Shown here piece by piece: positions 9,449-9,603 of a DNA stretch of 64,000 bases; the stretch's first letter is position 1, and each line of letters starts with the position of its first letter. A model generated the notes under the pieces. It saw nothing but the letters and a program-made list of their open reading frames with translations. It searched no databases and was not told where the DNA came from. The position numbers and the translations under genes are program-made. The stretch is from positions 1 through 64,000 of the forward strand of contig JAHXQP010000029.1 in the NCBI GenBank assembly GCA_019391515.1, given 5' to 3'. Source of the DNA: Clostridiaceae bacterium (lineage in GTDB: Bacteria; Bacillota; Clostridia; Tissierellales; Sporanaerobacteraceae).

Positions 9449-9484
9449 TTATTTTAATAAAAAACTTTTTATTAAAATAACCAT
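9449..9484 (-). CDS. 11-codon mini-ORF MVILIKSFLLK with strong Shine-Dalgarno, upstream of the cas operon (CreT-like candidate)
   Basis: minus strand AGAAAGGAGATAATT-ATGGTTATTTTAATAAAAAGTTTTTTATTAAAATAA; SD 6 nt from ATG; coding region coincides with a perfect 15-bp inverted repeat (9449-9463 / 9466-9480). Confidence 0.4.
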   Translation of the reverse strand: MVILIKSFLLK

Positions 9485-9574
9485 AATTATCTCCTTTCTA
9501 ATTATATTTTCTCTACCAACGCTTAGTATGTCCTATAATAAGTTTAGCCTTATTCCCCATTATAATTATGGTCT

Positions 9575-9603
9575 ATTATAATTAATAAAATAACATTTGT
9601 TAT
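9575..9603 (-). promoter_or_regulatory. Candidate sigma-A promoter for the mini-ORF transcript
   Basis: minus strand ATAACA-N17-TATAAT; -35 overlaps a TAACATTTGTTA palindrome (9591-9602). Confidence 0.35.

Follow-up and report, generated by a model that had tools for sequence, protein, structure and literature searches.

The window, as we call the whole 64,000-nt stretch of DNA analysed here, carries a complete type I-B cas operon on its minus strand. This operon (cas6-cas8b-cas7-cas5-cas3-cas4-cas1-cas2) begins with cas6 (8600-9325), and a CRISPR array clipped by the window start lies on the same strand (1-943), with the repeat CTTTTAATAGAACTAAAGTAGAATGTAAAT in the minus-strand reading. Upstream of cas6, about 430 nt of intergenic DNA are followed by the gene of a WYL/WCX-domain regulator (9758-10708, minus strand), and no minus-strand ORF of at least 80 amino acids was found between 9361 and 9758. 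A perfect 24-bp palindrome, TAATATTGAATTAATTCAATATTA, occupies positions 10730-10753 just upstream of the WYL gene and is possibly its autoregulatory operator. Another palindrome, TAACA-N(1-2)-TGTTA, is present in three copies, two in the cas6 leader (9343-9353 and 9377-9387) and one overlapping the -35 element of the mini-ORF promoter described below (9592-9603); it may serve as the operator of a regulator, for instance the WYL protein. Further long perfect hairpins with short loops at 12262-12297 (16 bp), 59229-59279 (24 bp) and 62939-62973 (16 bp) are probably terminators. An Rfam search over the whole window returned no match, and no tRNA gene was found in it.

The intergenic DNA contains a mini-CRISPR on the plus strand, in which two degenerate copies of the array repeat flank a short pseudo-spacer beside the type I cas locus, as in CreTA modules. 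The last 8 nt of the first repeat, psiR1 (9640-9673), are identical to the 5' handle of the array repeat (ATGTAAAT), and the handle GAATGTAAAT is kept exactly at the 3' end of psiR1 (9673). The pseudo-spacer psiS, TTATATTTATGTTCTATAGAACTAA (9674-9698), is shorter than the array spacers (about 36 nt), and the second repeat, psiR2 (9699-9728), agrees with the array repeat at 24 of 29 nt, mainly in its first 22 nt. A divergent degeneration of the two repeats, as seen in psiR1 and psiR2, has been described for creA genes (PMC8501985). The pseudo-spacer also has partial self-complementarity and forms a 13-bp stem with the end of psiR1 (9643-9735, plus strand, z = -2.7), an odd property for a guide that needs to be single-stranded.

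Type I effectors leave every sixth guide position unpaired with the target DNA. The pseudo-spacer matches a site on the plus strand of the same intergenic region, where a CCA PAM (9557-9559) adjoins a target (9560-9577) that is mismatched only at positions 6, 12 and 18. Pseudo-spacer TTATATTTATGTTCTATA and target TTATAATTATGGTCTATT agree at 15 of the 15 counted positions; an equal match came up in 0 of 20,000 shuffles of the intergenic DNA, and no site in the 2.84-Mb assembly other than 9560-9577 is free of counted mismatches. This partial match beside a PAM, which includes seed positions 1-5 and 7-11, falls in the promoter of a mini-ORF, covering the -10 boxes and overlapping the -10 element of ATAACA-N17-TATAAT. 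In the CreA of Halobacterium hubeiense, positions 6 and 12 are free to vary and positions 1-5 and 7-11 are essential (PMC8501985). Judged by sequence, the mini-CRISPR and its target have the anatomy of the CreA/CreR type, and CreA-type repression of the 9575-9603 promoter, the well-supported part of our reading, appears very probable.

A minus-strand AGAAAGGAG-ATAATT-ATG opening the peptide MVILIKSFLLK* had been noticed at this place in the original prediction, and it is found on re-reading as described, with the ORF ending at 9449. This mini-ORF, the putative core of creT (9449-9484, minus strand), reads directly as 36 nt and 11 codons (ATG GTT ATT TTA ATA AAA AGT TTT TTA TTA AAA TAA), the ATG lying at 9484-9482. 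Its Shine-Dalgarno (SD) sequence AGAAAGGAG (9491-9499, minus strand) is a 9-nt match to the anti-SD located 6 nt 5' of the ATG, the anti-SD being assumed to be the usual Firmicutes sequence; a pattern search did not find the 16S 3' end of the host. The length of this match is equalled by only one of 47 longer window genes, and an SD this long with a correctly spaced start codon arises in shuffles of the window's 212-nt gap with P = 0.0005. The predicted promoter, ATAACA-N17-TATAAT (9575-9603, minus strand), is directed toward the mini-ORF and cas6 and matches 10 of 12 hexamer positions, a score that by itself is not above chance. All the minus-strand TATAAT elements listed earlier were located again, at 9580-9575, 9564-9559 and 9506-9501; AT-rich DNA yields 6 +/- 2 sites of this kind in every 500 bp by chance, so that hexamer matches taken alone say little for a promoter. 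The targeted promoter is predicted to be that of a small element with strong initiation signals, a 9-nt SD and an AUG, as in CreTA modules.

The mini-ORF also forms an AU-only hairpin (9449-9480, minus strand). The arms of its 15-bp inverted repeat (9449-9463 and 9466-9480) are 100% complementary across a 2-nt gap, as had been claimed; the repeat, placed at first over codons 2-12, in fact extends from base 2 of codon 2 to the end of the stop codon. As RNA it folds into a 14-bp stem with a 4-nt loop, and none of 400 composition-matched shuffles of the intergenic region gave a short-looped stem of 14 bp or more. With neither G-C pairs nor a T run, the repeat was rejected as an intrinsic terminator. 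A hairpin is predicted in the putative creT RNA of both the window (z = -3.2) and its relative Anaerosalibacter massiliensis (z = -5.0) and, to our knowledge, such a hairpin is required in three of the three characterised CreTs. The region is very AT-rich and such ORFs and hexamers are easily found in it, so a chance ORF over an AT-rich inverted repeat, devoid of function, had to be considered. The shuffles speak against it (P = 0.0005 for SD and start codon, 0/400 for the hairpin, 0/20,000 for the guide-target match), as do the conservation in A. massiliensis and the recurrence of the same arrangement at two further loci, L028 and L031, and we regard this explanation as improbable.

Our preferred reading, to which we assign a probability of about 0.58, is that the locus constitutes a CreTA-like (type VIII) RNA toxin-antitoxin module on the type I-B CRISPR-Cas of an Anaerosalibacter species. 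Because the mini-CRISPR guide points, with a PAM, at the promoter of the mini-ORF, the CRISPR machinery probably silences a toxic RNA (or possibly the cas genes). We infer the transcription, Cas6 processing, repression and toxicity of the module to proceed as follows. Cas6 would cut the degenerate mini-CRISPR (creA, plus strand, 9640-9728) into a crRNA-like guide, for which psiR1 holds the 8-nt handle sequence. Cascade carrying this guide would bind the CCA-flanked site at 9560-9577, through a partial pairing shorter than an ordinary immune target calls for, and, by analogy with published CreTA work, would block the promoter at 9575-9603. The blocked creT transcript (minus strand, from about 9570) would bear a very strong ribosome-binding site, an AUG and the AU hairpin of the 11-codon ORF. 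Were Cascade lost or inhibited, creT RNA would be made and would most likely do harm by capturing and stalling initiating 30S subunits or ribosomes. The harm would come from a strong SD combined with a start-codon hairpin, as in the Acinetobacter CreT, and neither from a peptide nor from rare-tRNA depletion. That the repressed RNA is toxic is the weaker part compared with repression of the promoter, and seems to us somewhat probable.

The codons of the mini-ORF bear on the last point. The original prediction had remarked that tRNA sequestering was not evident here, and codon counts from 47 window genes agree: every codon of the mini-ORF is common (GTT 2.0%, ATT 3.6%, TTA 4.7%, ATA 6.4%, AAA 7.8%), AUA is the most used Ile codon, and no minor codons directly follow the start. 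Rare-codon sequestration was rejected on these figures, and a toxin core free of rare codons points to initiation trapping rather than to tRNA sequestering.

Several known systems can be compared with this locus. In the Acinetobacter CreTA, an SD, an AUG and a small hairpin stand at the start of a 33-bp ORF that is toxic as RNA, and a UUG start is weak (PMC10097628). The module of Acinetobacter sp. WCHA45 (PMC10097628) shares with the window two degenerate repeats around a pseudo-spacer, a CC-flanked partial target, an SD-led mini-ORF (33 bp there, 36 bp here) that is divergent from creA and downstream of the target, a start-codon hairpin, and homologous modules in close relatives. It differs in being of type I-F and lying between cas3 and csy1, whereas the window module is of type I-B and precedes cas6; its hairpin is a 5-bp stem around the AUG, that of the window a 14-bp AU stem after the AUG. 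The likeness is one of layout, no sequence similarity being claimed, and the window toxin is putative. In the type I-B CreTA of H. hubeiense (PMC8501985), creT and creA form one operon, unlike the divergent creA of the window, and two AUA codons sequester a rare tRNA, whereas the window mini-ORF has a single AUA, the most frequent Ile codon, and its hairpin, unlike that of the Halobacterium module, overlaps the ORF. Read from sequence, the layout of the published CreTA modules (PMC10097628, PMC8501985) is shared by the window. CrePA associates a KilA-N protein toxin with CreA (review PMC12737573) and resembles the window in that a CreA-type guide represses a neighbouring promoter; the window, unlike CrePA, has no protein-sized gene between target and cas6 and no KilA-N toxin there.

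The closest other intact relative, in the genome of A. massiliensis ND1 (G002), was used for comparison; this genome is a genus neighbour of the window, which is on that ground assigned to an Anaerosalibacter species. Its repeats, pseudo-spacer and target are nearly unchanged with respect to the window, the target being identical except at position 18, while the DNA between them drifts. The SD is extended to AAAGGAGGTGAT, a 12-nt perfect match, and the hairpin has a longer stem; an ATT replaces the ATG of the mini-ORF, and one extra base in the hairpin loop shifts the frame. Since A. massiliensis keeps the SD and the hairpin and loses the ATG and the frame, selection seems to act on the former and not on the peptide. 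In this species a toxin that requires an AUG may be weak or dead, and the ATT and the frame shift, despite the 12-nt SD, count against our CreTA-like reading.

The same comparison disfavours a hydrophobic peptide, which had been put forward from the start as an alternative. The mini-ORF would then encode a small type I-like toxin, a reading favoured by the hydrophobic character of MVILIKSFLLK and by MYFLLLFTLIRKVTISLYIGLSL being encoded at the corresponding place of L028. However, 11 residues are too few for a membrane span, and the peptide is not conserved: its frame is broken and its start codon lost in A. massiliensis, only MVILI would be made in another relative (G279), and L031 would give MEYDFK. 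Moreover, synonymous changes abolish the toxicity of the Acinetobacter CreT (PMC10097628). We consider a peptide toxin highly improbable.

The genome G279 belongs to another family, and its Cas6, 91% identical to that of the window, is the sister of the window's in the Cas6 tree, which clusters the window, G279 and A. massiliensis. G279 has lost the target-bearing promoter and the hairpin through two deletions that coincide with short direct repeats, and its psiR1 is truncated, with a mutated handle. An SD persists, followed by ATG GTT ATT TTA ATA TAA, the first five codons of the window mini-ORF. G279 has kept intact its eight cas genes, its WYL gene and a CRISPR array of 21 or more repeats. 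As we read the sequence, the antitoxin and the toxin promoter have decayed together next to a cas operon in good order, which a CreTA module would allow and which suggests that cas operon transcription has a further source besides the targeted promoter. Transcription reading through from the WYL gene, whose end in G279 is about 256 nt upstream, may replace the deleted promoter. As regards the operon itself, Cas5 of G279 (L079, 5742-6647) is only 54% identical to that of the window, compared with 94-96% for Cas7, Cas8b, Cas4 and Cas1 and 85% for Cas3, a divergence probably due to local recombination within the operon.

Loci for a wider survey were collected by Cas6 searches of the order, class and phylum, and the regions upstream were scanned for pairs of pseudo-spacer and target. 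At 18 loci (window included, duplicate records excluded) the pseudo-spacer matches a CCN-flanked site in its own intergenic region. The pseudo-spacers differ among these loci and each pairs with its own target upstream of cas6, guide and target covarying. Positions 6 and 12 are mismatched in 21 of 36 cases across the 18 loci, only these free positions being informative since the scan required a match at the remaining seed positions. A search of viral contigs for cas6 relatives found none. Apparent extra copies of the creT region elsewhere in the genomes (L005, L010, L011) were discarded as probable AT-rich chance similarity, with no mini-CRISPR or target seen there.

Ten loci (L024, L032, L040, L046, L047, L048, L062, L063, L064 and L069) have their target 19-82 nt upstream of the cas6 start, where it covers or adjoins a promoter that is mostly near consensus (TTGACA-N17-TATAAT at L063). 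By their sequences these ten seem to fit CreR, a crRNA-like autoregulator of the cas operon that is generally uncoupled from a toxin gene (review PMC12737573). At L024, L032, L040, L048, L062, L063, L064 and L069 the promoter proximal to cas6 is matched with a CCN PAM; these loci come from several clostridial families, and their mini-CRISPRs are predicted to be CreR-type autoregulators. With ten related mini-CRISPRs on or beside a cas promoter, autoregulation is the commoner use. The target is about 200-285 nt before cas6 at five others (the window, A. massiliensis, L026, L028 and L031), where about 200 nt are inserted, and L045, L058 and L060 fall cleanly in neither group. A strong SD with a start codon is found in the insert of the window (P = 0.0005), L028 (P = 0.002) and L031 (P = 0.001); L026 has a far target without an SD mini-ORF. 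The ORFs of these inserts are unrelated (MVILIKSFLLK in the window, MYFLLLFTLIRKVTISLYIGLSL in L028 and the TTG-initiated MEYDFK in L031), which would match the fast evolution shown by CreTs. The Cas6 tree leaves unresolved the forks that decide whether the far-target class is one clade.

The main rival to our CreTA-like reading is cas autoregulation. The guide would send Cascade to the promoter of the cas operon, as in CreR, and the mini-ORF with its hairpin would belong to the leader of the cas mRNA, encoding a leader peptide or acting as a translation-coupled regulatory leader. The window resembles CreR in having a mini-CRISPR before the cas operon and a partial target in a cas-facing promoter, and several surveyed relatives fit directly: the mini-CRISPRs of L024, L032, L040, L048, L063, L064 and L069 target a near-consensus promoter directly before cas6. 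The target promoter of the window lies 234-252 nt upstream of cas6 and faces it, and no recognisable terminator was found between the two; with none to end it, the creT transcript may run on into cas6. A weak candidate for a separate cas promoter, TTGAGC-N17-TATATA, was read from the sequence at 9400-9429 (minus strand), a stretch still present in G279 after deletion of the target promoter there. A systematic hexamer scan between the mini-ORF and cas6 did no better than shuffles, and an independent cas promoter is thus not distinguishable from chance. A 16-bp stem-loop (9341-9389, minus strand, z = -4.8) lies directly 5' of the cas6 ribosome-binding site, and stems of other sequence (AAAGCTGTAA...TTACAGCTTT) occupy the same place in L026, L028 and L031; as the sequence differs among these loci, it is the structure that seems kept. 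A strong stem-loop at this position would suit a regulated cas leader. Together with the ten relatives that target the cas promoter itself, the lack of a demonstrable separate cas promoter and the far-target L026 without a mini-ORF argue against a CreTA-like module.

A leader, on the other hand, gives no reason for the retention of an SD of 9 to 12 nt and a hairpin over a mini-ORF whose start codon and frame drift. The relatives with direct cas targeting have neither such a gap nor a mini-ORF, and the window differs from CreR by precisely its strong-SD mini-ORF and the roughly 200 extra nt between target and cas6. In G279, promoter and target are deleted and the cas operon is intact, although WYL read-through could substitute. 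We consider autoregulation through a cas leader, in either form, possible and clearly less likely than a CreTA-like module. The original proposal of a CreT-like partner for the mini-CRISPR is borne out in part: strong support comes from a feature that it had not included, the match of the guide to the mini-ORF promoter with a CCA PAM and mismatches only at every sixth position, in a layout like that of published CreTA modules. The repressed RNA may be either a toxin or the leader of the cas mRNA.

Both functions could also reside in a joint transcript, one Cascade-repressed promoter giving rise to an RNA that carries the toxic initiation element followed by the cas operon. Loss of Cascade would then release the toxin together with more cas mRNA. 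The target promoter is co-directional with cas6, no terminator intervenes, and the strong SD and hairpin are present; in H. hispanica, deletion of the creTA-bearing region cut downstream cas transcription by 72-93% (PMC9458426). The conserved stem-loop before cas6 could, against this, equally mark a separate 5' end. We hold a joint transcript to be a tentative option, slightly behind autoregulation alone. The CreTA, CreR and joint-transcript readings overlap, the joint one containing both others, so that our confidences in them do not sum to one.

Few CreTA modules are known from bacteria, since they are short and poorly conserved. For the window module, in a clostridial I-B group, the computed chain of evidence runs in full from guide, PAM and target to initiation element, hairpin and decayed relative, and it is credible that this module is CreTA-like, of a known kind, in a new host group and with an unusual putative toxin core. 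The sequences of the surveyed group suggest that mini-CRISPRs before cas6 often autoregulate cas and that some have turned into toxin guards. More speculatively, the same I-B mini-CRISPR may exist in two states, as a cas autorepressor and as a toxin-repressing antitoxin, the latter arising where an insertion of about 200 nt that includes an SD mini-ORF separates cas6 from the targeted promoter; the window promoter may then drive both toxin and cas. If true, the module would be an addictive autoregulator linking CreR and CreTA. It is credible that a link between cas autoregulation and CRISPR addiction is visible in the window, and a shift from autoregulator to toxin guard would make the origin of CRISPR addiction modules directly testable.
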